Of a stretch of 49,547 nt of DNA, positions 12,284-33,560 are shown piece after piece (position 1 is the stretch's first letter; the number at the start of each line of letters is the position of its first letter). Below the pieces are notes generated by a model, which worked only from the letters and a program-made list of their open reading frames with translations, was not told where the DNA came from and made no database searches. The translations under genes and the position numbers were made by a program. The DNA comes from Bacteroidota bacterium (GTDB lineage: Bacteria; Bacteroidota; Bacteroidia; JAFLBG01), in NCBI GenBank assembly GCA_017303975.1, contig JAFLBG010000026.1, positions 1-49,547 of the forward strand. Reading direction: 5' to 3'.

Positions 12284-12297
12284 TAAAATTGCTGTTT

Positions 12298-12328
12298 TTT
12301 GACTTTTGGCACGCTATTTGGTATATTG
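12298..12328 (+). promoter_or_regulatory. Promoter for the 12352 gene (TTTG-N20-TATATTG)
   Basis: TTTG at 12298-12301 is followed after 20 bases by TATATTG at 12322-12328, close to the Bacteroidota consensus. The same bases also read as TTGACT-N17-TATATT, an E. coli-like sigma-70 layout. The predicted start of transcription is about 16 bases before the ATG at 12352, which supports that start over an upstream in-frame ATG at 12289. Confidence 0.65.
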
Positions 12329-12351
12329 TTAGTAGATTAAAACTTACAAAA

Positions 12352-12813
12352 ATGAAAATAATAAAGAAACTTACCATTTTAGCTTCATTGGTTGCAGTAT
12401 TTAATACTACCAGTGCACAAGACGAATTAGTTCCGGATCAAAATCCGAATTACAGAAAAAGTATGGATAAATACATGACAGTAAAAGACGATTTAACAAA
12501 AAGCGAAAGTACTACTATTCAAGCTACATACAAGGCTATTGATGATATGGAAATAAGGAAAGAAAGACGTATGCAAAGAAAAGAATGGCGTCAAGATAGA
12601 AGAATGGCTAGAATTAACAACCGTGGTCTATTTTGGGGTAACGGTTATTACAATAATTCGTTTGGGTATAATCCATACAATTACAACTACTATAGCCCTT
12701 TTTCTCCATACGATAACTTTAACATGGGTTACACCCCTTACTTTAGAAGAGGTTTAAATACTGCAACCACACTTGGTCTTTTAGGCTTAGGCACGTATTT
12801 ATTATTGAGATAA
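12352..12813 (+). CDS. Small secreted Arg/Tyr-rich protein of unknown function
   Basis: A 153-residue protein with a clear signal peptide (MKIIKKLTILASLVAVFNTTSAQ). The mature part begins acidic, has a strongly basic helix (about residues 73-95, many Arg/Lys with repeated RRMQR/RRMAR), then a Gly/Asn/Tyr-rich low-complexity stretch (NNSFGYNPYNYNYYSPFSPY), and ends with a short hydrophobic tail (TTLGLLGLGTYLLLR). I do not recognise a family. I chose the ATG at 12352 because the signal peptide begins there and the promoter lies directly upstream. It precedes the LpoB-like and COG3014-like lipoprotein genes in the same direction, which hints at an envelope role only. Confidence 0.75.
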   Translation: MKIIKKLTILASLVAVFNTTSAQDELVPDQNPNYRKSMDKYMTVKDDLTKSESTTIQATYKAIDDMEIRKERRMQRKEWRQDRRMARINNRGLFWGNGYYNNSFGYNPYNYNYYSPFSPYDNFNMGYTPYFRRGLNTATTLGLLGLGTYLLLR

Positions 12814-12956
12814 TGAAATATATCATAAACAATTTAACTAAAACAAAATAATTCAGTAGATTCTTCTAACCAAACAGCATGTTACTCCGTTAACCCATTT
12901 AGCTCTTTAGTTGCTAAAAATTAAAAGGAATAGCATATTTAAAAAAATAAAAAAAC

Positions 12957-13541
12957 ATGAAAAAGATTATTTTAAGTGCCTCTTTAATATTAGCACTAGT
13001 AGTAACAGGTTGTCAACGTAAAGTAACACGTGTTGAGCCCGAAAAACAGATTGATTTAAGTGGCAGATGGAATGACGTAGATTCAAGAATGGTTGCAGAC
13101 GAAATGATAAAACAAGTGCTAGGAGAAAAGTGGTTGAGTGACTACATGCAAGCCAACGGAGGAAAAAAACCTGTAGTAATTGTAGGTTTTGTTAAAAACA
13201 AAAGCCACGAACAAATAGAGGCCGAGGTTTTTATGAAAGACATAGAAAAATCTTTTATAAAATCGAATCAGGTGCGACTTGTGCAAGGTGGAGAAAAACG
13301 TGAGCAAGTGCGTGGAGAGCGTGCTGACCAACAAGACAACTCTTCTCAATCAACCATGAAAAAATGGGGATTAGAAATTGGAGCAGATTTTATGATGCAA
13401 GGCACAATAAACTCTGTTGTTGATTCTTACAAGAGAGATAAAGTTGTATTCTATAAAACAAATTTAGAATTAACCAATATTCAAACCAATGAAATTGTTT
13501 GGATTGGAGACAAGGAAATAAAGAAAACAGTAAAGAATTAA
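12957..13541 (+). CDS. LpoB-like penicillin-binding-protein activator lipoprotein
   Basis: A 194-residue lipoprotein with an N-terminal lipobox (LVVTGC, lipidated Cys19). The body matches the LpoB family (COG3417): DLSGRWNDVDSRMVADEMIKQVL, then KKPVVIVGFVKNKSHEQIEAEVFMKDIEKSFI, EIGADFMMQGTINSVVD and TNLELTNIQTNEIVWIGDKEIKK. In enterobacteria LpoB is an outer-membrane lipoprotein that activates the peptidoglycan synthase PBP1b. Whether Bacteroidota homologues have the same partner is not established from this sequence. A strong intrinsic terminator follows. The next gene is a COG3014-type lipoprotein, a neighbour pairing I recall from gamma-proteobacteria. Confidence 0.88.
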   Translation: MKKIILSASLILALVVTGCQRKVTRVEPEKQIDLSGRWNDVDSRMVADEMIKQVLGEKWLSDYMQANGGKKPVVIVGFVKNKSHEQIEAEVFMKDIEKSFIKSNQVRLVQGGEKREQVRGERADQQDNSSQSTMKKWGLEIGADFMMQGTINSVVDSYKRDKVVFYKTNLELTNIQTNEIVWIGDKEIKKTVKN

Positions 13542-13573
13542 TCTAATTCTTTTACAATTTGAAAACTAAAAAT

Positions 13574-13617
13574 AAAAACACCTGCATTAAATAGAATTAA
13601 GCAGGTGTTTTTATTTT
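13574..13617 (+). terminator. Intrinsic terminator after the LpoB-like gene
   Basis: AAAAACACCTGC (13574-13585) pairs with GCAGGTGTTTTT (13601-13612) around a 15-base loop, and the stem runs into a T-rich tract (TTTTTATTTTT). It lies 33 bases after the lpoB-like stop codon and only about 30 bases before the next gene, so that gene needs readthrough or its own promoter. Confidence 0.85.
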
Positions 13618-13641
13618 TCAGCTCTCTAAAAAAGTACACCC

Positions 13642-15024
13642 ATGCATTCTCGAGTATATTTTTCTTTTTTATTCATAATTGCTTGCCTCGGTATTCTGTT
13701 ATCCGGCTGCTTTAGTTATTACGAAAGAAATGCCGTTTTAATGACTGCTTTTGAGCAAAAAAACTATGCAAAGGCGGAAGAAGTGTTAAGTACCAAAAAA
13801 TGGGAAAAGAGGAAGAAAAACAGATTGCTTTATTACATGAATAAAGGAACTATTCTCCATTTACAAAAAAAATATAAAGAGAGTAATATCTATTTTCAAA
13901 AGGCTGATTATTATATAGAAGATTTTCAAACTAAGTGGGCTCTCAAACCTGTTGAATTTGTTAGTAATCCTTCTGTTCAGCCATATAGAGGAGAAAATTT
14001 CGAGCAACTCTTAATACATTACTATAGCACATTGAATTATTTGCAAATGGGAATGTTAGACGAAGCACTCGTTGAATGCAAACGAATGCAATTGAAAATG
14101 CAAAAGATTACAGACTACTATAAAAAAGAAAACAAATACAGTCGTGATGCATTTTCTCATTTACTTTTAGGTATAATTTACGATGCGCAAAAAGATTACA
14201 ACAGTGCTTTTATTGCATATAGAAATGCCTATGAAATATACCGGGATGATTATGTAAGAATGTTAAATACAGATGTTCCCAATCAGCTAAAAAAAGATTT
14301 AATTAGAACTGCTTATTTAAATGGATTTTATAGTGAAAGTTCGCAATACGAAAAAGAGTTTGGTATAACGTATGATAAAAATGATAACACAACCTCTTTA
14401 GTTTGTTTTTGGAACAACGGTTTAGGCCCGGTTAAAGATTCAAAAGATTTTAGTTTTATTCTTTCCTCTATTTCCGGAGGGTTTGGTACGTTTACCAATC
14501 TTGAGTTGGGATTAACAATACCAGTATACTTAGGAAATGATCAAAAGAAAAATGACAAACTAATTAATTTGAAAGTATTTAAAGTGAGTTATCCAACCTT
14601 TATATCGCGAGCGCGCATTTATACAAATGCATCTATTGAAAACGGTTCACAATCAACAAATTTTGAAACTGCAGAAAATATTGAGGCGATAGCTTACAGG
14701 TCATTGCAAGATAGAATGCTTAAAGAAATTGGAACAATGCTTGCTAGAACAGCACTTAAACTTGCTGCAGAAGCAATGGCTGAAAATCAAAATGAAGGAT
14801 TAGGGGCAGCCGTTAATTTATTTAATGCACTTACTGAAAATGCAGATACCAGAAATTGGCAAATGTTACCCCAATCTATCAATTATGTAAGAGTACCACT
14901 TAATGAAGGGAAAAATAATTTGTTGCTAAAGGCGTCCGGAACACAAAGAACTACATCAGATACACTAACAGTTGATGCTAAAAAAAATCAAACTAAATTT
15001 CACATTTTTAATACACTCAACTAA
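13642..15024 (+). CDS. COG3014-like TPR lipoprotein of unknown function
   Basis: A 460-residue lipoprotein: signal sequence with lipobox LLSGC (Cys23), then TPR-like helices (about 35-235; YAKAEEVLSTKKW, ESNIYFQKADYYI, LLIHYYSTLNYLQMGMLDEALVECKRM, HLLLGIIYDAQKDYNSAFIAYRNAYEIYRDDY). A beta-rich C-terminal half follows (about 240-460; GPVKDSKDF, VSYPTF, YVRVPLNEG). The order matches the uncharacterised COG3014 family as I know it. That family is often encoded beside LpoB-type lipoproteins, as here, suggesting a shared role in cell-wall synthesis. The stop overlaps the stop of the convergent phosphatase gene in the four bases CTAA. Confidence 0.78.
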   Translation: MHSRVYFSFLFIIACLGILLSGCFSYYERNAVLMTAFEQKNYAKAEEVLSTKKWEKRKKNRLLYYMNKGTILHLQKKYKESNIYFQKADYYIEDFQTKWALKPVEFVSNPSVQPYRGENFEQLLIHYYSTLNYLQMGMLDEALVECKRMQLKMQKITDYYKKENKYSRDAFSHLLLGIIYDAQKDYNSAFIAYRNAYEIYRDDYVRMLNTDVPNQLKKDLIRTAYLNGFYSESSQYEKEFGITYDKNDNTTSLVCFWNNGLGPVKDSKDFSFILSSISGGFGTFTNLELGLTIPVYLGNDQKKNDKLINLKVFKVSYPTFISRARIYTNASIENGSQSTNFETAENIEAIAYRSLQDRMLKEIGTMLARTALKLAAEAMAENQNEGLGAAVNLFNALTENADTRNWQMLPQSINYVRVPLNEGKNNLLLKASGTQRTTSDTLTVDAKKNQTKFHIFNTLN

Positions 15025-16808
15025 ACTCTTACACCCCAAATTAAAATATCATCTACCTGTTCTTTTGTTCGTCTCCAATCTTCAAATGCCTTGTTAATTA
15101 CTTCCTTTTGCAAATCGATAGGCTGTTTAGACACCTCTAATAGTAATTGTCTAAATCTACCTACCATAAATTTCTTGCCCAAAGGTCCTCCAAATTGATC
15201 TGCAAAGCCATCGGAAAAAATATAAATTGTATCGTTCTTTTGTAGCTTTAAAACATGATTGTTAAACTTAGGTCGTTCTTCTCCAACATAAAATCCAATT
15301 GGAAACTTATCTGCTTTAATTTCTATTACTTCATTGTTTCTTATTACAATCAAAGGGTTGTATGCCCCAGCAAATTGTAACTCTAAATTTTCATAGTCTA
15401 TAGAGCAAAAAGACAAATCCATTCCATCTTTTGCTTTAGCTACTTCTTCGGTATTGTGTAATGTTTGGCTAACACCTTCATTCAAGGCATCTAGAACATC
15501 TCCAGGAGTAATTTTATCAGTATGAACAACCACATGGTTTAGTAAATTATATCCTACAATAGACATAAATGCTCCAGGAACCCCGTGCCCGGTACAATCA
15601 ATAGCTGCAAATAAAACTTTTCCATTCTTTTGATTTATCCAGTAAAAATCACCACTCACAATATCCTTAGGTTTATATAATACAAAGCTTTGTGGCAACA
15701 ATTGTTTTACTAAACTATCAGGAGGCAAAATAGCTTCTTGAATTTTTAAAGCGTACTTAATACTGTCAGTTACTTGTTTGTATAAATCTTGCAATGCAAC
15801 ACTCTTCTCCTCTATCTCTTGTTTTTGTCTTACAACTTCTTCTGTACGTTCTACCACCTTTCTTTCAAGTACTCTTTCGTTTTCTGCTAAATCGGTACGC
15901 ATTTTTAATAACGCTTGTCCTAGCGTATCCTCGTTACTTAATGGTTTATAAACTGCATCAAAATTTCCTGCCCCAACTTCATAGGCAAAATCTGTTGTTC
16001 GCTTTAGTCCATCTACAAGACCCACTAATGCATCAGACATCTCACCAATCTCATCATTTCTCCCCTCTATTCTTTCTTTAGGTAAAACCCCTCTTCCCAT
16101 TAACAATAACATTCCTTTAAGCTTTGCCACAGGGTTTACAATACTCCTAACCGTATAAATAGCAATAAACAAACCTCCTACAGCTAAAACAATTCCCAGA
16201 TACTTTACCAACAATTCCAAAAAATTAAACGAAGTTACCATCTCTTTCGTCTCAATTTCAGCATTCTCTGTTTGGGTTGTAATTAAATCATTTAATTGAA
16301 TTAATATTTTATCTGTAGAATCTTTAAGATCTTCTTTAGCTAAATTTTGACGCGAAAGAATAAGATATCCATCTTCATATGCGGAAAAAAAGTTTAGTTG
16401 AGACATAATCTCTTTCTTATAAACATCATAAAGTTGATCTGTGCTTGTTATTATACCAGAAAGAGAATTAGCTTCTTTGGGAGCAAAGCTGCCAGATTGC
16501 TTTTTAAGCCTCTTTTTCAAATTTGGATAATCTATATCTAACAATATTTTAAGTTTATCCTTTTGTGGATCATCGTCTTCTTGAGAATAAACCCAATTCA
16601 ATAATAAATTTCTAGATTCTGTAATTTGAGAGTAAAAATTTTTAAGCTCATTTACCGAAGGCAAGTAAACATCAACAACTTTGTCGGTTTTTTCTTTACT
16701 TGTTTTTGTAATGTATAGTGTATATATAAAGGCAATAAGGGTTAAGAATATAAGTATTCCAAACCCTAAACCAATTCTTCTTCCTACCGAAAAATTAAAT
16801 TTACCCAT
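15021..16808 (-). CDS. Membrane sensor PP2C phosphatase (4HB-HAMP-SpoIIE)
   Basis: A 595-residue membrane signalling protein. TM1 lies at about 12-32, followed by a periplasmic four-helix-bundle sensor of the MCP type (about 35-200), TM2 at about 200-220, HAMP (about 220-320), a coiled coil (about 325-350) and a SpoIIE-type PP2C phosphatase domain (about 375-595). The metal-binding acidic residues are in place: VSGDFYWI, AAIDCTGHGVPGAFMS, FSDGFADQ and VDDILIWG. It should dephosphorylate serine or threonine on a protein partner, classically an anti-anti-sigma (STAS) factor, but no STAS or anti-sigma gene is nearby. It is the last gene of an operon with a TPR protein (19-base gap) and a YfiR-like protein. 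Confidence 0.93.
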   Translation of the reverse strand: MGKFNFSVGRRIGLGFGILIFLTLIAFIYTLYITKTSKEKTDKVVDVYLPSVNELKNFYSQITESRNLLLNWVYSQEDDDPQKDKLKILLDIDYPNLKKRLKKQSGSFAPKEANSLSGIITSTDQLYDVYKKEIMSQLNFFSAYEDGYLILSRQNLAKEDLKDSTDKILIQLNDLITTQTENAEIETKEMVTSFNFLELLVKYLGIVLAVGGLFIAIYTVRSIVNPVAKLKGMLLLMGRGVLPKERIEGRNDEIGEMSDALVGLVDGLKRTTDFAYEVGAGNFDAVYKPLSNEDTLGQALLKMRTDLAENERVLERKVVERTEEVVRQKQEIEEKSVALQDLYKQVTDSIKYALKIQEAILPPDSLVKQLLPQSFVLYKPKDIVSGDFYWINQKNGKVLFAAIDCTGHGVPGAFMSIVGYNLLNHVVVHTDKITPGDVLDALNEGVSQTLHNTEEVAKAKDGMDLSFCSIDYENLELQFAGAYNPLIVIRNNEVIEIKADKFPIGFYVGEERPKFNNHVLKLQKNDTIYIFSDGFADQFGGPLGKKFMVGRFRQLLLEVSKQPIDLQKEVINKAFEDWRRTKEQVDDILIWGVRV

Positions 16809-16827
16809 GATTATGGGTATTAAGATA

Positions 16828-17715
16828 CTAATTTCCCTCTATTTTCTTCTTTTCCGCTTTAAACTTTTCAGATTTTTCCTGATCGTTTAGTGTGTAGTAA
16901 ATTCCTTCTAACGCTTCAATTACCTTTATTTTTTTCGAATTTAACATATACGCCTTTTCAAAATATGGTAATCCTTTCTTAAAATAATTAGCAGCTATAT
17001 CTTGTACTTTTTCTATTTCAGCAAGATCTGTTGAATAATCTGTTTGATTTATAACCGTAACGCCTTTGTTATAATACAAACTACCAATATTGTAATAAGG
17101 ACTGTAATCATTTGCATCCAACTCAATTGCTTTGCCATAATTTTCTATTGCCAAATCAAAACACTTACTATTTACTATTTGATTGGCCTCAAAAATGTCT
17201 CTATACACACTAGCTAGCCCATTATAAAATTGAAGATCAAATTCTTTGAAATTAAAATTTGGATCTGCTATTTTTTTTGCGCTTTTAAATTGATCGTAAT
17301 TTTTTATAGCAAGCATAAAATTACTTGTATCCATCAACCTTACGGATTCCTTTTGAAACGAAGATGCCAATGCTGCTATTACCTTCTTTATGTTGATGGT
17401 GTGTTCTTGAGTTACATCTAACTCCAGCGCTTTTGTTAAACATTTAATGGCATCTGTTCGATATTGCCCCATTCCAGTGCCGGCATCGTTTTGTTTTGAT
17501 ATTTCTTTCAATATAAATCCTTTTACATACCAAACAAATGCATCCTTGCTTGTTTCAGGATGATCTACCGTTTTGGATATGTAAATATAAGCACTATCTA
17601 TTTTTCCTGCCTGAACAGCTTTTTGCGCTTTATCCACCAAATCATATTGAGCAAAGCCCATACCTGCCTTTAAAAGCAACGCAAACAAAATGATATTTTT
17701 ATTGTAAAAATTCAT
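16828..17715 (-). CDS. Periplasmic TPR protein in the YfiR-SpoIIE operon
   Basis: A 295-residue protein with a signal peptide ending GFAQ and a chain of TPR-type helix pairs across the whole mature part, for example LVDKAQKAVQAGKIDSAYIYI, AIKCLTKALELDV, LAIENYGKAIELDANDYSPYYNIGSLYYNKG and GLPYFEKAYMLNSKKIKVIEAL. It has no lipobox or catalytic motif. It starts two bases after the stop of the YfiR-like gene and ends 19 bases before the phosphatase, so the three are co-transcribed. Its likely place is the periplasm, where it could act as a scaffold between the YfiR-like protein and the sensor domain of the phosphatase (inference). Confidence 0.85.
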   Translation of the reverse strand: MNFYNKNIILFALLLKAGMGFAQYDLVDKAQKAVQAGKIDSAYIYISKTVDHPETSKDAFVWYVKGFILKEISKQNDAGTGMGQYRTDAIKCLTKALELDVTQEHTINIKKVIAALASSFQKESVRLMDTSNFMLAIKNYDQFKSAKKIADPNFNFKEFDLQFYNGLASVYRDIFEANQIVNSKCFDLAIENYGKAIELDANDYSPYYNIGSLYYNKGVTVINQTDYSTDLAEIEKVQDIAANYFKKGLPYFEKAYMLNSKKIKVIEALEGIYYTLNDQEKSEKFKAEKKKIEGN

Positions 17716-17717
17716 AT

Positions 17718-18245
17718 CTATTCAGCAGGCAATGCCAATGATTTTAAATTCGAACTAATTTTCAATTTGTATTTCTCTGCGTTTGCCGAATTAAGCTCAA
17801 ACTTTTGCTTATTATCTTTTACCACAAAGTTTATTGCCGACCATTGTTTGGCTAATCCGGTTTTTTCAGTAACTAAAAGAGTACTCTTTCCCTTTAGTTT
17901 AGAGCTTATATCACTTACAGATATTTCTGTATCGGGACTAATAAATAAGATGTGGTATTTATCTTTTGAAGATATGCTAGTTAACTGTTTAACTTCAAAA
18001 TCTTGGAATCCGGCTTTTTTGGTAGAAGCCATTTTAGTAAGTTCCGCAATTAAAGATGGATTAGAGCCAACAATTGCTATCGTAAAGTTTCCTGATTTAT
18101 ATTCTTGAGGCCAATCGATGTATTTTGTAAAGTTATAGATGTAAACAGTCTTTACTTTTGCATTTACAGCTTCGGGGGAGGTCGTATTATCCGTAGTGGC
18201 GGATAATAGAAAAATAAATAGGATTATGTAAAGAAGATTTCGCAT
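17718..18245 (-). CDS. YfiR-like (DUF4154) periplasmic protein
   Basis: A 175-residue exported protein (signal MRNLLYIILFIFLLSATT) of the DUF4154/YfiR family: VKTVYIYNFTKYIDWPQ, NFTIAIVGSNPSLIAELTKMA, YHILFISPD, KSTLLVTEKTGLAKQWSAINFVV, KFELNSANAEKYKLKISSNLKSLA. In Pseudomonas, periplasmic YfiR restrains the membrane diguanylate cyclase YfiN through its periplasmic domain. Here no GGDEF gene is present; the downstream membrane partner is instead a HAMP-SpoIIE phosphatase. First gene of a three-gene operon. A TATATTTG element lies 15 bases before its ATG. Confidence 0.9.
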   Translation of the reverse strand: MRNLLYIILFIFLLSATTDNTTSPEAVNAKVKTVYIYNFTKYIDWPQEYKSGNFTIAIVGSNPSLIAELTKMASTKKAGFQDFEVKQLTSISSKDKYHILFISPDTEISVSDISSKLKGKSTLLVTEKTGLAKQWSAINFVVKDNKQKFELNSANAEKYKLKISSNLKSLALPAE

Positions 18246-18260
18246 CTACAAAATAGTAAT

Positions 18261-18268
18261 CAAATATA
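18261..18268 (-). promoter_or_regulatory. Candidate -7 element (TATATTTG) for the YfiR operon
   Basis: Minus-strand TATATTTG fits TAnnTTTG exactly and sits 15 bases before the ATG of the YfiR-like gene. A matching -33 TTTG is not evident. Confidence 0.45.
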
Positions 18269-18324
18269 GTACCAATTTGTAAATGAAATACTGATTTTAG
18301 AAAATAATGGGAATAAAATGAAAA

Positions 18325-18579
18325 TTACTTCTTAACGGTAGGCTTAGTTGAGGAAGTACCCCCACCATTACCTTTGTCTTTGTCTTTAGACACGGTAATA
18401 TCGCCACCTGTTTCAGTTTCATTTGTAGAAACTGTTGTAGAAGAAACATCTCCGGATATTCTAGCGCCTTCCATTGGTTTAGAAGTCTTATTATCGCAAG
18501 ACGGTTTTATTGATTCTTCCTTCTTGCATGACTGGAATGCTAAGAAAACAACTAATGATATGTATAAATACTTTTTCAT
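18325..18579 (-). CDS. Small surface-type lipoprotein
   Basis: An 84-residue lipoprotein. Starting at the ATG at 18579 it reads MKKYLYISLVVFLAFQSC, a signal peptide ending in a Bacteroidota-type lipobox, directly followed by KKEES. Positive-then-acidic residues after the lipidated Cys resemble the lipoprotein export signal that sends lipoproteins to the cell surface in Capnocytophaga and Flavobacterium. The rest is Ser/Thr/Gly/Lys-rich and disordered-looking. A longer frame to 18630 exists but would begin upstream of the promoter at 18588-18619 and overlap the kinase stop. Function unknown. Confidence 0.75.
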   Translation of the reverse strand: MKKYLYISLVVFLAFQSCKKEESIKPSCDNKTSKPMEGARISGDVSSTTVSTNETETGGDITVSKDKDKGNGGGTSSTKPTVKK

Positions 18580-18587
18580 TCTTATAT

Positions 18588-18619
18588 CAAATATATAACA
18601 TTTTTTCATATTAGTCAAT
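18588..18619 (-). promoter_or_regulatory. Promoter of the small lipoprotein (ATTG-N20-TATATTTG)
   Basis: On the minus strand ATTG (18619-18616), 20 bases, then TATATTTG (18595-18588). The -7 element is perfect and the spacing is ideal. It sits between the kinase stop (18623) and the lipoprotein ATG (18579), so the lipoprotein can be expressed on its own. Confidence 0.65.
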
Positions 18620-18622
18620 AGT

Positions 18623-21601
18623 TTATACATTTTTTTTTAATTCAATCACAATTTCAACCCTCGTGCCTCTTTTCCCCTCATTTTTTAAATCGTATGGTCC
18701 TTTAATTTCAATCTTCATTCCTGTCATTTTACGTAATAAATTGATTCGGGTTACAGTTATTTCTGTTCCTTTTGAATCGTGCTCGGTTGGGAATAATGTT
18801 TTTTTCTCATAACTGGCATCAATACCTACTCCATTATCCTCAATAACAAAGCATAACTCGCTACTGGTTAGCATATTAACAAAAATACTTAGTTTTCCCA
18901 CTTCTTCTAAAGGCAATAAACCGTGCCAAATACTATTTTCAACAAATGGCTGAATAATCATGGGTGGTATTTGCACTTCTTCGGTATTTACCTCCGGAGA
19001 AACAACTATTTCATACTCGAAACGAGTAAAACGCATCTGTTCGAGAGAAATATAAAGCTGCAACCGCTCCAACTCCTCCTTCAAAAGCACAAAATTATTT
19101 TGAGAACTGTCTAAATTTTTTCTTATCAATTTGGCAAAACTGGTTAAATACTTATTTGCAGCAAGCTTATCTTGTCTATTTATATAGTACTGAATAGAGT
19201 TTAATGAATTAAAAATAAAATGCCTGTTCATACTTGCATTTAATGTTTGCTGTTCTAGTGCAAGTAATTTAGATCTATACAACAATTGTTGAGTTAATCG
19301 TTTTCTTTTTGCCACAGTTAGACGCCAATTGTAAATCAACCATGTTGCAATAACCAAGGCTATAAAACACGACAAGATAAACCACCATGTTCGAAAAAAA
19401 GGAGGTGTAATTGTAAATTTAAAAGTAACAGGTTCTAACCAGTTATAGCCATCAATGGATGTAGTAACATAAAATACATACTCTCCTTCCGAAAGATTTG
19501 AATAGGTGGCAAAATTAGCTTCTGTTGCGGGAAGCCAATCGGAGTCGAATCCATCTAATTTAAATTTATATCGAATTTTTTCGGGGTGAGTAAAATAGAT
19601 TGCATTAAAATCAATGGTTACGTAGTTGTTTTTAAAATTTAATTTTAAATCTAATGGTAATCCGGTTTTTGAATCTATTCCACTTGAAAAATCGGTTAAA
19701 TCCTTTTTCTGTAAAAATAATCTTATACCTGAAATGATAACTTCGGGTAAAACGTTTGTTTTTTTGTCTTTTTCATGTTGATATTTTAATAAACCATCTA
19801 CTGTTCCAAAATAAATATCCCCGGAAGAATCGCCCCAAATTGCATTTTGATTAAACTCTAGCGATGATACACCATCAGAAATAGAATAGTTTTGAATTTT
19901 ATACGGTTTGTTTTCTGAATAGTACTCATTCAAATCAAATCTATAAAGTCCAAAATAAGTACCAATCCAAAAATTATTTTTCTTATCAATATAAGTACTT
20001 ACAATTCGATTGGCAGCAGGATTGTCAGAAAAAACAAGAGTATCAATTTTATCATTCTTTAAAATATTTAAGCCTGCATTTGTTCCAATCCAATAATTGC
20101 CTTTAAAATCTTGCTTGATGTTATACACCAAATTATCGCACAATCCATCTTTTACTGTATAGCTTTTACTATTATTCCCATTAAGGAAACACACTCCACC
20201 GCTAGAAGCAATAGATAGTTGATTCTTGTTATCAATAAAAATATCGTTTATGTGTTCCGAATCGAAATTGCAACTATTTATAAGGTTGGCGTTTCCGGTT
20301 CCTTTATATTCATACAAACCCAACCATGTACCTAAATAATACGTATTGTTTTTTGACTGATACATGGACAAAACGAATTCCTTAACTCCAATAATCTCTT
20401 CTGTCAATTTATTTGAGGTTGGGTTGTAGGAATAAAATTTATCAGCAGTGTTAAACCAAAGTTTCCCTGCGTTATCAATAAAGCATTTATAAATAATCTC
20501 ATTTGCAATTGCGCTATTGTTTATCGCTTTTTTAAATTGACCATTTTCAAGTTTATTTATCCCACCACCGTAAGTTCCTATCCATAAGTTATTCAGCTTG
20601 TCTTGTGCTATAGACATTACGGCATTGTTTGATAAACCATCCTGCTTTTTATAGGATATAAATTTTTCGCCTAAAAACTTTACTAATCCGCTGCCATCTG
20701 TTCCTATCCATATATTATGCTCTTTATCCTCAAAAACACAATTAATAAGATTAGTTGGTAATCCGTTTTGGGTTGAGTACTCCTTTATAGAATAATCATT
20801 TTGAATTTTAAATAATTTTTCTTGAGATGACAACCAACTGTTTTTTTCCGAATCAGTATATATGTTTGGCAAATATTCCGGGAAAGATTGTTTGTTGGAA
20901 ATTATTCCTGTTGTACTACTAATATAAATTACTCCATCTGTCTTTGTAGACAAACAAAGAAGCCCATCCTTTTCGGAAATAGATAAAACATGAATAGTTG
21001 AATCGATTGTTTTTACTTGTTCAAAAGAGTTGCTATTAGCATCTTTTTTTAGCAATCCATTTTTCGTTGCGACCCAAATATTTTGATTTCTATCAATAAA
21101 TATTTTTTCAAATAAATTATTTGCTGAGTTAATTTTGCAAATTGAGTTAAGTTGATTTTTTAAAGGGTAATAAGAAAAAATTTCTTCTTTGGTTGCAATA
21201 TAAATAGTATTGGAACTACCTTGAGCTATTGACTTTATTATCGTTTTATCAAACGTATTTTCTAAAATCTTTGGAGTAAATATTTTTTCATTATTGTACG
21301 TTGCTAAACCGGAAGTTGTCCCAATCCAAAGCTGATTAGCGCTATCACATAATAAAGCTGTTATCTCATTATCAGGTAAGCCTTCAGTCTTAAAAAAATT
21401 TTTAAAGTTTCTACCGTCAAACCTACTCAACCCACCAAATGTGGCTATCCACAAATAGCCCTTTTTATCTTGACATATTGCTTGTACCTGAGATTGAGCT
21501 AATCCTTGATTAATAGAGTAATTGACAAAGCTGTATTGTTGAGAAAAAAAAGCAACAGGAATAAATAGGAGAAAAAATAAAACGTGCTTTTTTATAATCA
21601 T
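18623..21601 (-). CDS. Propeller-Y_Y_Y LytS-type sensor histidine kinase
   Basis: A 992-residue membrane sensor kinase. It has a signal peptide and then about 14 two-component-regulator propeller repeats (about 20-620; blades such as QAICQDKKGYLWIATFGGLSRFDG and CVFEDKEHNIWIGTDGSGLVKF). A Y_Y_Y beta-sandwich (about 660-730; IRYKFKLDGFDSDWLPA), one TM (about 738-760), a coiled coil, a His_kinase domain (PF06580 type) with phospho-acceptor His794 in NRHFIFNSLNSIQ, and a C-terminal HATPase (QPFVENSIWHGL N-box, IEDNGVGID G-box) follow. The outer propellers would sense a periplasmic ligand. The usual partner is a LytTR response regulator, but none lies in this window. Confidence 0.94.
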   Translation of the reverse strand: MIIKKHVLFFLLFIPVAFFSQQYSFVNYSINQGLAQSQVQAICQDKKGYLWIATFGGLSRFDGRNFKNFFKTEGLPDNEITALLCDSANQLWIGTTSGLATYNNEKIFTPKILENTFDKTIIKSIAQGSSNTIYIATKEEIFSYYPLKNQLNSICKINSANNLFEKIFIDRNQNIWVATKNGLLKKDANSNSFEQVKTIDSTIHVLSISEKDGLLCLSTKTDGVIYISSTTGIISNKQSFPEYLPNIYTDSEKNSWLSSQEKLFKIQNDYSIKEYSTQNGLPTNLINCVFEDKEHNIWIGTDGSGLVKFLGEKFISYKKQDGLSNNAVMSIAQDKLNNLWIGTYGGGINKLENGQFKKAINNSAIANEIIYKCFIDNAGKLWFNTADKFYSYNPTSNKLTEEIIGVKEFVLSMYQSKNNTYYLGTWLGLYEYKGTGNANLINSCNFDSEHINDIFIDNKNQLSIASSGGVCFLNGNNSKSYTVKDGLCDNLVYNIKQDFKGNYWIGTNAGLNILKNDKIDTLVFSDNPAANRIVSTYIDKKNNFWIGTYFGLYRFDLNEYYSENKPYKIQNYSISDGVSSLEFNQNAIWGDSSGDIYFGTVDGLLKYQHEKDKKTNVLPEVIISGIRLFLQKKDLTDFSSGIDSKTGLPLDLKLNFKNNYVTIDFNAIYFTHPEKIRYKFKLDGFDSDWLPATEANFATYSNLSEGEYVFYVTTSIDGYNWLEPVTFKFTITPPFFRTWWFILSCFIALVIATWLIYNWRLTVAKRKRLTQQLLYRSKLLALEQQTLNASMNRHFIFNSLNSIQYYINRQDKLAANKYLTSFAKLIRKNLDSSQNNFVLLKEELERLQLYISLEQMRFTRFEYEIVVSPEVNTEEVQIPPMIIQPFVENSIWHGLLPLEEVGKLSIFVNMLTSSELCFVIEDNGVGIDASYEKKTLFPTEHDSKGTEITVTRINLLRKMTGMKIEIKGPYDLKNEGKRGTRVEIVIELKKNV

Positions 21602-21685
21602 AACTACATTAAATGTACAGAAAATAATAGCTATTGGCTAGATTCTTAAACAAAATTGATTTTAAAATTGTACTTTCAAGTATCA

Positions 21686-23272
21686 ATGAAAAGGTTGCTT
21701 TTTGTATTTGCTATTTTGTATTTACCTGTTCAATGTCAAGAAAAGTACTTGGTTTTTTTTTCTGACAAGAATGGCAGCACTTTTAATCCATATACTTATT
21801 TTGATTCAAAAGCCATAGAAAGAAGAATTAAGCACGGTATAAATTTATACGATAGTACCGATTTCCCTATTAACCAAAATTACGTTGCTAAAACCCAAAA
21901 CAGTGTTGATTCTATTGGAAAACAACTGAGATGGTTTAATGCGGTAACTGTATTTGCCAATACGAATCAAATAGATGAGGTGAAGAAATTTTCATTTGTA
22001 AGAGAAGTAGTTTCTATACATACACAAGCTCAATTATCAACTGTTGAAGAGAGCTACAATACAGTGCTTAAAGTAGAACACGAAAAAATTTTGCAACGGC
22101 AACTAAATAGAATGCAAGGAGATTTATTTATAAACTCGAATAATACCGGCAAAGGAATACGAATAGCGGTGTTTGATGCCGGCTTTCCAACGGTAGATAC
22201 AAATCCTTGTTTTGAGCATATAAGAAAACGAGGTGGATTTATAAAAACATACGATTTTGTAAAAAACAGAGATTTTGTTTACTCCTACAATCAGCATGGA
22301 ACAATGGTTTTATCATGTATTGCAGGAAAGTCGAACACAAAATATATTGGACTTGCAACAGAAGCAGAATTTTTATTGGCACGAACTGAATATGGCCACC
22401 GAGAACCATTCTCTGAAGAGGAAAATTGGCTAGCAGCTGTTGAATGGGCTGACAAAAATGGGGCTGACATCATTAACAGTTCACTTGGTTATACAAATAA
22501 AAGATATTTTACAACAGAGATGGATGGGCACACTAGCTTAGTTTCCAAAGCTGCTAATTTAGCTGTTAAGAAAGGTATATTAGTTGTAAATGCAGTTGGA
22601 AATGAGGGTAGCGATAATTGGAAGACCATTATAACCCCCTCAGATGCAGACAGTGTTTTAGCGGTTGGCGGAATAGATCCCGACACAGACTATCGTATTT
22701 CGTTTAGCTCTTTTGGTCCGAATAGTGAAAAAAAAATTAAACCCAATGTTTGTGCTTTAGGGAAAGTAATTGCAGCGGGCAAAAAAGGATTAGAGGTTAC
22801 GCAGGGTACATCTTTTGCAAGTCCTTTAATTGCAGGATTTGCGGCATGTGTACTAAGTATGAATAAAAATTTTACCGCAATGCAATTATTTGATACTGTT
22901 CAAAAATCGGGCGATTTATATCCTTATTTCGATTATGCTCATGGGTATGGTGTGCCTCAAGCAGAAAAATTTATGCAAAAAAGTAACACGCCCCTCCCTA
23001 CTGAATCCTTTGAATTAATTGAAAATAATGGAGTTTTAGAAGTAACAGTGAATGATAGTTATGTAAATACTACCAACGAGAGTAGAAAAGAAAATAGTTA
23101 TCAAAACCATTTATTCTATCATATTGAAAACAAAGCCGGATATCTTAGCAAATATTATCTAATTAAAGTTAGCTCCAAACAACCTGTGCGGCTTGTTATA
23201 TCAGACTTTGAAGTTGGTACTACACTTCGCTTCCATTACCAGAAACATACAATAACATATACCATTAAGTAA
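21686..23272 (+). CDS. Secreted S8 (subtilisin-like) serine protease
   Basis: A 528-residue secreted protease. The signal peptide (MKRLLFVFAILYLPVQC) is followed by a prodomain-like region (about 20-130; YLVFFSDKNGS...YFDSKAIERR, an N-terminal module usual for Bacteroidota S8 peptidases) and the catalytic domain (about 150-440). The triad is complete: Asp164 in IAVFDAGFP, His204 in NQHGTMV and Ser376 in GTSFASPLIAGF, with the oxyanion Asn in VNAVGNEG. A short C-terminal beta domain without a clear T9SS signature ends the protein. I chose the ATG at 21686 because the signal peptide begins there. Its stop abuts the ATG of the next gene with no spacer. Confidence 0.93.
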   Translation: MKRLLFVFAILYLPVQCQEKYLVFFSDKNGSTFNPYTYFDSKAIERRIKHGINLYDSTDFPINQNYVAKTQNSVDSIGKQLRWFNAVTVFANTNQIDEVKKFSFVREVVSIHTQAQLSTVEESYNTVLKVEHEKILQRQLNRMQGDLFINSNNTGKGIRIAVFDAGFPTVDTNPCFEHIRKRGGFIKTYDFVKNRDFVYSYNQHGTMVLSCIAGKSNTKYIGLATEAEFLLARTEYGHREPFSEEENWLAAVEWADKNGADIINSSLGYTNKRYFTTEMDGHTSLVSKAANLAVKKGILVVNAVGNEGSDNWKTIITPSDADSVLAVGGIDPDTDYRISFSSFGPNSEKKIKPNVCALGKVIAAGKKGLEVTQGTSFASPLIAGFAACVLSMNKNFTAMQLFDTVQKSGDLYPYFDYAHGYGVPQAEKFMQKSNTPLPTESFELIENNGVLEVTVNDSYVNTTNESRKENSYQNHLFYHIENKAGYLSKYYLIKVSSKQPVRLVISDFEVGTTLRFHYQKHTITYTIK

Positions 23273-32336: not shown

Positions 32337-33560
32337 ATGGCTCAAGATTCAAATAGAACTAATAGACCAACACGAATAAAAGATATTAAGCTTAATTCGT
32401 TGCTAGAAGTTACTAAAGCTATAAACAACAATTTTACTACAGCAGATTTACTCTTAAAGTTCGAAGACATCTTGAAAAACGAACTAAGCATTGGCAAAGT
32501 AGCCTTGTTTAGTAATGATTTGGGGTGGAAATGCATTATGAAATACGGTGTGGGAAATGAATACGTAAATTTGAATGTAGAAAGAGACTTAATTCATATC
32601 ACAGAAATAAGTACAATAGATTTATCTGCTCAGCTTCACGAAACATCGTTTGAGATAATTATTCCAGTTTTTCATAAATCACAACCTTTAGCCTACGTGC
32701 TTATAGGCGATATTGAAGATAAGTTAGAGGTAAGTCCTGCAATTAAGCATTTACCGTTTATACAAACACTTACCAATATTATTGTTGTTGCCATTGAAAA
32801 CAAAAAACTTGCGAAAGAAAACATACGTCAAGCCGCAGTAAAAAAAGAGTTGGAACTTGCTTCTGAAATGCAATCTATGTTGTTTCCGAGCAGTTTGCCC
32901 AACGATAAACAATTAGAAGTGGCTGCATTTTATTTGCCGCACCAGCAAGTTGGAGGCGATTATTACGATTTTATTCGTTTAAGTGAAGATGAAATAGCTT
33001 TTTGTATGGCAGATGTTTCCGGCAAAGGAGTATCTGCAGCACTGTTGATGGCAAATTTCCAGGCAAACTTAAGAGCACTTATTAATTATTCAAGCTCGCT
33101 TACCGAATTGATTAGGGAGTTGAATAAAAAAGTGATGGCTAATGCAAATGGAGAAAAATTTATTACCCTGTTCATTGCCAAGTATAATTTGGTAACTCGT
33201 ACACTGAATTACGTAAATGCAGCACACAATCCTCCGGTTATAACAAACGGAAAGTCGTGTAGTCTTTTAACGATAGGATGTACAGGGCTTGGAATGTTTG
33301 ATGATTTGCGTAAAATAAAAGAAGGTATTGTTACATTAGAACCGGGCTCTGTTATTCACTGCTATACAGACGGGTTGGTTGAAATTGAAAATACGGACAA
33401 AGAAGAATTTGGCACCGATAGATTAAATGATTTAGTTTTTGATAATGCAGGAAATAGCATGACTTCTTTAAATAATAAAATAATAGATTCTGTACTTGAC
33501 TTTAAAGGCGACATGCCTTACATTGATGATATAGCGCTATTTAGCTGTCGATTTAAGTAG
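32337..33560 (+). CDS. Cytoplasmic GAF-like/SpoIIE PP2C phosphatase (RsbU type)
   Basis: A 407-residue soluble phosphatase. The N-terminal half (about 15-165) looks like a GAF sensor domain (LNSLLEVTKAINNNFTTADLLLKFEDIL start, VALFSNDLGWKCIM), then a linker helix (KKELELASEMQSMLFPSSLP), and the SpoIIE domain (about 205-407) with metal ligands in QQVGGDYYDF, CMADVSGKGVSAALLMA, CYTDGLVEIEN and YIDDIALF. RsbU-like proteins dephosphorylate STAS anti-anti-sigma factors; no such partner is adjacent. The last 24 bases overlap the 3' end of the convergent ligase gene. Confidence 0.93.
   Translation: MAQDSNRTNRPTRIKDIKLNSLLEVTKAINNNFTTADLLLKFEDILKNELSIGKVALFSNDLGWKCIMKYGVGNEYVNLNVERDLIHITEISTIDLSAQLHETSFEIIIPVFHKSQPLAYVLIGDIEDKLEVSPAIKHLPFIQTLTNIIVVAIENKKLAKENIRQAAVKKELELASEMQSMLFPSSLPNDKQLEVAAFYLPHQQVGGDYYDFIRLSEDEIAFCMADVSGKGVSAALLMANFQANLRALINYSSSLTELIRELNKKVMANANGEKFITLFIAKYNLVTRTLNYVNAAHNPPVITNGKSCSLLTIGCTGLGMFDDLRKIKEGIVTLEPGSVIHCYTDGLVEIENTDKEEFGTDRLNDLVFDNAGNSMTSLNNKIIDSVLDFKGDMPYIDDIALFSCRFK

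Follow-up and report, generated by a model that had tools for sequence, protein, structure and literature searches.

YfiR and the Sia proteins have both been studied in Proteobacteria as regulators of cyclic di-GMP (c-di-GMP) and biofilm formation. Yfi systems are widespread and modular, with a PAS/HAMP receptor that can be joined to histidine kinase, HPT, GGDEF-EAL or methyl-accepting chemotaxis protein outputs (Malone 2012, PMC3375315); no phosphatase output is described in that work, where the word 'phosphatase' appears once, in a cited title. In Pseudomonas aeruginosa, SiaA and SiaB set the phosphorylation of SiaC at Thr68; SiaC without this phosphate switches on the cyclase SiaD (PMC7647112, PMC8457831). 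Here we describe a three-gene cassette that joins the two kinds of component in bacteria where a search for GGDEF proteins detected none. It lies on the minus strand of a 49,547-nucleotide stretch of DNA from a Bacteroidota bacterium (GenBank assembly GCA_017303975.1, contig JAFLBG010000026.1, positions 1–49,547; the whole stretch is called the window below), and it encodes a YfiR-like protein, a TPR protein and a membrane phosphatase of the SpoIIE family.

An earlier sequence-only reading of this DNA had suggested that YfiR is paired here with a protein phosphatase and not with a diguanylate cyclase, and this is borne out by 84 cassettes and by YfiR::PP2C fusions. The envelope-stress role proposed in that reading is a conjecture. 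The modularity of Yfi systems is already known; what appears to be new is YfiR with a phosphatase output. On balance we favor a model in which a SiaA-type phosphatase, acting on a SiaC-type switch protein, is gated by YfiR with assistance from the TPR protein, with an output other than c-di-GMP.

Conservation of the cassette

The first gene of the cassette encodes the YfiR-like protein (positions 17718–18245, a 175-aa open reading frame). It is followed on the same strand by the TPR gene (16828–17715, 295 aa) and the phosphatase gene (15021–16808, 595 aa), with gaps of 2 nt and 19 nt, respectively. A draw of 395 genomes across the phylum was uninformative, since few of them have a close YfiR. 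Among 395 relatives, a YfiR match at 1e-12 was found in 141; the window genome is the sole member of its order among those compared. We then compared the neighborhoods of 127 YfiR genes, taken from 106 genomes. Most were chosen as the nearest relatives of the window YfiR, which biases the proportions in favor of the cassette. The order YfiR, TPR, four-helix bundle (4HB)/HAMP-PP2C occurs at 84 loci in 84 genomes with 20 family codes, the TPR gene being kept between the other two each time (at a few loci a contig end truncates the phosphatase), and the median gaps are 2.5 nt and 26.5 nt. With an identical gene order in 84 genomes, the cassette is far beyond chance, and the possibility raised by the sequence-only reading, that the three genes might rarely be adjacent in related genomes, clearly fails. 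A cultured organism with the entire cassette, Acidiluteibacter ferrifornacis S-15 (locus L036), is a candidate for testing the hypothesis.

The other loci are more varied: the YfiR-TPR pair either lacking a phosphatase or lying at the end of a contig (six of the 127), YfiR immediately ahead of PP2C with no TPR gene (two, L100 and L125), YfiR::PP2C fusions (seven), a YfiR::cyclase fusion (one), YfiR accompanied by a TonB-receptor plug or a histidine kinase (22, one of them fused), and five that fit no category.

A Bacteroidota-type −7 element (TATATTTG, 18261–18268, minus strand) is located 23 nt ahead of the YfiR ATG. Across the cassettes, the motif TAnnTTTG is present within 150 nt ahead of YfiR in 58/83 (11.2 expected), as compared with 12/84 ahead of the TPR gene (7.3 expected) and 5/82 ahead of the phosphatase gene (5.7 expected). 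Enrichment ahead of the first gene, with the other two near expectation, fits a single transcription unit; judging by these motif counts, the three genes are likely to form one conserved unit with one promoter. The gaps and the single −7 element reported in the sequence-only reading were thus confirmed from the open reading frames and the motif counts.

All cassettes found lie within one class, mostly in one YfiR clade, and their gene order could be a matter of shared ancestry with no functional coupling. We give this explanation very little credence, since YfiR identity across the cassettes mostly falls to 35–55%, yet order and gaps stay fixed while flanking genes vary; moreover, the −7 element is retained ahead of the first gene only, and separate YfiR::PP2C fusions exist. 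In the YfiR tree, every cassette belongs to one group (local support 94) that includes two other rows, and the YfiR domains of the PP2C fusions are in a different clade. The fused proteins consist of YfiR, a helical stretch, a transmembrane (TM) segment near residue 305–350 (earlier in a truncated one) and then PP2C, histidine kinase or nucleotide cyclase. The YfiR::PP2C fusions link both domains independently of the cassette. Because cassettes and fusions fall in different YfiR clades, YfiR and PP2C were probably brought together on two or more occasions.

The same loci bear on whether YfiR and the phosphatase make contact at all. The genes might be merely co-expressed, with the TPR protein or a ligand regulating the four-helix domain and YfiR serving another envelope process. 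This would suit a receptor domain unlike the CHASE8 domain bound by Pseudomonas YfiR, and a TPR gene that lies between the two and is retained nearly throughout the cassette clade. However, YfiR and PP2C share a single chain at the seven fusion loci, and at L100 and L125 they are direct neighbors with no TPR gene between. We therefore regard co-expression without contact as unlikely, and prefer regulation of the phosphatase by YfiR.

Exported YfiR-fold and TPR proteins

The 175-aa protein matches Pfam DUF4154/YfiR with 111 bits (cut-off 24.9), and it is the sole DUF4154 protein of its genome. Its score with the NCBIfam TOL_0243 YfiR-like model is 103.9, under the cut-off of 125. A search of the PDB by sequence alone recovered no YfiR structure. 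The AlphaFold model of the protein has a predicted local distance difference test score (pLDDT) of 89.3, and its 15 top fold matches in the PDB are all Pseudomonas YfiR structures (E 8e-8 to 3.5e-6, target TM-score (TMt) 0.74–0.82, 10–14% identity). The N-terminus has a hydrophobic, signal-like segment, and a TM scan found no TM segment. By profile match and predicted fold, this is a YfiR-fold protein, predicted to be exported to the periplasm.

Pseudomonas-type YfiR has two conserved cysteine pairs (PMC4655355). The window YfiR has no cysteine; among the YfiR proteins of the 84 cassettes, 23 have none and 47 have one. Redox sensing via cysteines, as known for Pseudomonas YfiR, therefore cannot apply here and was rejected.

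The 295-aa protein matches Pfam TPR_11 (41 bits). It starts with a signal peptide (MNFYNKNIILFALLLKAGMGFAQ) and has no TM segments by TM scan, and a hydrophobic N-terminus is present in 76/82 of its relatives; it is thus predicted to be exported as well.

The membrane phosphatase and its likely substrate

From its N-terminus, the phosphatase contains a TM segment (residues 12–30), a periplasmic helical bundle, a second TM segment (199–217), HAMP (~219–269), a helical linker and a SiaA-type PP2C domain (~375–595). The matches to 4HB_MCP_1 (24.4 bits, cut-off 27) and HAMP (19.3, cut-off 25) are both under the curated cut-offs, but the assignment is backed by the two segments from the TM scan and by the all-helical bundle between them in the structure model, itself modest in quality (pLDDT 69.5, built from five sequences). 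Pfam found neither CHASE8 nor GGDEF in the cassette phosphatase, though CHASE8 was detected in other YfiR loci. The description of the SpoIIE PP2C domain as complete was accurate: the Pfam SpoIIE match is 67.8 bits, and the catalytic residues are all in place (SGD387FYW, D404CTG407HG, SD533G534FAD537 and D586D587). The DCTGHG motif occurs in 81/82 cassette phosphatases.

Within this family, the domain is closest to SiaA. The sole strong PDB match by sequence is the SiaA PP2C structure 6k4e (7e-36; next 3es2, 0.023). The same entry is the best Foldseek match for the PP2C part (1.3e-16, TMt 0.82), with SpoIIE/RsbU-type domains at ~2e-9 (1.8e-9). The NCBIfam SiaA model matches at 1.7e-62, with 211.9 bits versus an equivalog cut-off of 700, the match being confined to residues 266–594. 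The metal-binding residues of SiaA (D457, D474, G477, D600, G601, D604 and D653; PMC7647112) align with D387, D404, G407, D533, G534, D537 and D587, and all are kept. By these comparisons, the protein is SiaA-like rather than a SiaA ortholog.

The window genome encodes four SiaC and five SiaB domains, in SiaB-SiaC pairs located away from the cassette. For the best-scoring pair, comparison with the P. aeruginosa proteins gives 4e-22 for SiaC and 1.3e-14 for SiaB. The phospho-site Y[FY]N[TS] is kept in all four SiaC proteins (YFNTSS in the one matching P. aeruginosa). With a SiaA-like phosphatase in the cassette and SiaC elsewhere in the genome, the target class can be narrowed, and SiaC is the likely class. 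The sequence-only reading had called the target unknown; it remains true that no partner gene is adjacent, but kinship to SiaA narrows the choice.

Distribution across genomes is consistent with this narrowing. SiaC is present in 94/94 genomes with a YfiR-linked phosphatase (or YfiR-TPR pair) and in 117/301 of the remainder (Fisher 8e-32, uncorrected for ancestry); it is present in 6/12 genomes that have other YfiR types only. In several families the genes are also neighbors on the same strand: SiaB/SiaC directly upstream in f6 (L088 and L147, with SiaB alone in L157), directly downstream of YfiR-phosphatase in f36 (L100), 4–5 kb upstream in f16 (L092, L163 and L168), and SiaC 10 nt after the fusion gene in f8 (L129). 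A rough chance expectation is ~2 neighborhoods (94 windows of 14 kb; ~4–5 SiaC per 3.5 Mb genome).

STAS and anti-sigma pairs of the RsbV-RsbW type are the classical substrates of SpoIIE-family phosphatases, and YfiR and the TPR protein could instead regulate dephosphorylation of such a pair, with transcription as the output. Two STAS proteins and a single RsbW-like HATPase_c_2 protein are encoded on other contigs of the window genome. As the sequence-only reading had stated for STAS and anti-sigma genes, no Sia, STAS or anti-sigma (RsbW) gene adjoins the cassette among the window neighbor proteins scanned; no STAS profile was run on cassette neighborhoods. The cassette phosphatase is nearest to SiaA, not RsbU or RssB, and the window contains a different gene that is a natural RsbU candidate, a second SpoIIE phosphatase at 32337–33560 (plus strand). 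This protein has the motif DVSGKG, the sole such case among those read in the genome (21 others have D[CS]TGHG), and a weak match to the SiaA model (4.7e-10); from these features, it probably works with the STAS and RsbW-like proteins. We thus consider a STAS substrate for the cassette phosphatase improbable, and SiaC remains the preferred target class.

The class has a conserved main SiaB-SiaC locus (L226, L227, L231, L237 and L239). It encodes a propeller-SpoIIE phosphatase, a probable lipoprotein of ~272 aa, SiaB and SiaC, and it often faces a TerB-ABC transporter gene. No clear candidate for the final effector was found among the SiaB-SiaC neighbors at this locus. At L133 (18428–19522) SiaB is a tandem double-domain protein, as it is in several relatives.

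A search for GGDEF gave no match in 60 relatives tested, including the window genome, as compared with matches in 8 of 14 control genomes. Given this absence, a standard diguanylate cyclase is an unlikely downstream effector. Other cyclases are encoded at two individual loci. At L105 (8762–14667), a YfiR::PP2C fusion, a YfiR::adenylate/guanylate cyclase fusion and a further cyclase-domain gene are arranged in series on one strand. At L217 (10414–14298), a gene for a 1294-aa propeller-Y_Y_Y-nucleotide cyclase-HD protein, a possible output enzyme, starts 5 nt after the cassette phosphatase. These single cases hint at class III cyclases as the output.

Other genes flank the window cassette. Upstream on the same strand (18325–21601) are two genes, one for a propeller His_kinase (LytS-like) and one for a small, probably disordered 101-aa lipoprotein, a pair not seen upstream in the other cassettes examined. 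On the plus strand (12957–15024), an LpoB-like lipoprotein gene is followed by a TPR lipoprotein gene, which is convergent with the cassette, with a 4-nt overlap at the phosphatase stop. Among the scanned proteins of window positions 12289–23272, Pfam found no OmpA domain of the kind expected in a YfiB-like lipoprotein.

Proposed signaling path and comparison with known systems

In the model we favor, a dimeric HAMP phosphatase would be controlled at its periplasmic helical bundle by the exported YfiR-fold protein, and the exported TPR protein would serve as a co-sensor or scaffold. The signal would be transmitted via HAMP and a coiled coil to the SiaA-type PP2C domain, which would dephosphorylate a SiaC-type switch protein at the conserved Thr/Ser; a SiaB-type kinase would put the phosphate back. 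In its unphosphorylated form, SiaC would bind an effector other than a GGDEF cyclase and switch it. In this scheme we infer the contact between YfiR and the phosphatase, the role of the TPR protein, the stimulus, the substrate (including which SiaC) and the final output. By analogy with YfiR-YfiN, YfiR would be expected to inhibit the phosphatase.

Several observations weigh against this scheme. The cassette periplasmic domain differs from the CHASE8/PAS domain bound by YfiR in YfiN. SiaA Phe612, implicated in contact with SiaC (PMC7647112), aligns with Lys545 in the window phosphatase. In most genomes, the window genome included, SiaB and SiaC are not beside the cassette, and their association with it was counted genome by genome with no correction for ancestry. 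In a partial Mantel analysis of distance matrices, all pairs of cassette proteins were significantly correlated, so that YfiR and the periplasmic domain were not singled out. Finally, the window genome has 23 SpoIIE domains and four SiaC proteins; in this genome, a wide variety of input domains seems to feed into a small number of SiaC switch proteins. The broader proposal that a YfiR module feeds a SiaA-SiaB-SiaC switch in bacteria without diguanylate cyclases (a new SiaC output), recognizes a four-helix-bundle rather than a PAS receptor, and was wired in this way at least two times has, in our estimate, about an even chance of being correct.

A literature search, in which subscription journals were mostly not covered, found no paper joining YfiR with a SpoIIE phosphatase, or YfiR with Bacteroidota. 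The cassette makes a role of SiaC outside c-di-GMP signaling testable.

Among known systems, YfiBNR (HmsCDE) of Pseudomonas, Escherichia and Yersinia is similar in placing a YfiR-fold periplasmic protein beside a HAMP protein with two TM segments and a cytoplasmic enzyme. The enzyme is PP2C in the cassette and GGDEF in YfiBNR, and the receptor is a helical bundle instead of CHASE8/PAS. The cassette also adds an exported TPR protein, and it has no cysteine pairs and no adjoining YfiB-like OmpA lipoprotein; YfiB is missing from many divergent Yfi systems as well (PMC3375315). SiaABCD of P. aeruginosa (PMC7647112, PMC8457831) has a membrane HAMP-PP2C phosphatase of the same subtype, and its SiaB kinase and SiaC with the NTSS phospho-site have counterparts in the window genome. 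In contrast to SiaABCD, the window genome has no GGDEF/SiaD, the cassette periplasmic domain is different and shorter, YfiR and TPR genes are added, and SiaB and SiaC are unlinked in most cassette genomes. Loci of the same class with a TonB receptor, YfiR and a CHASE8/HAMP histidine kinase likewise pair YfiR with a membrane signaling protein, but their output is a histidine kinase, they include an outer-membrane receptor, and their YfiR proteins are mostly of other clades. Taken with these systems, the cassette presents YfiR as a periplasmic input of general use, to which a phosphatase, a kinase or a nucleotide cyclase can be coupled.

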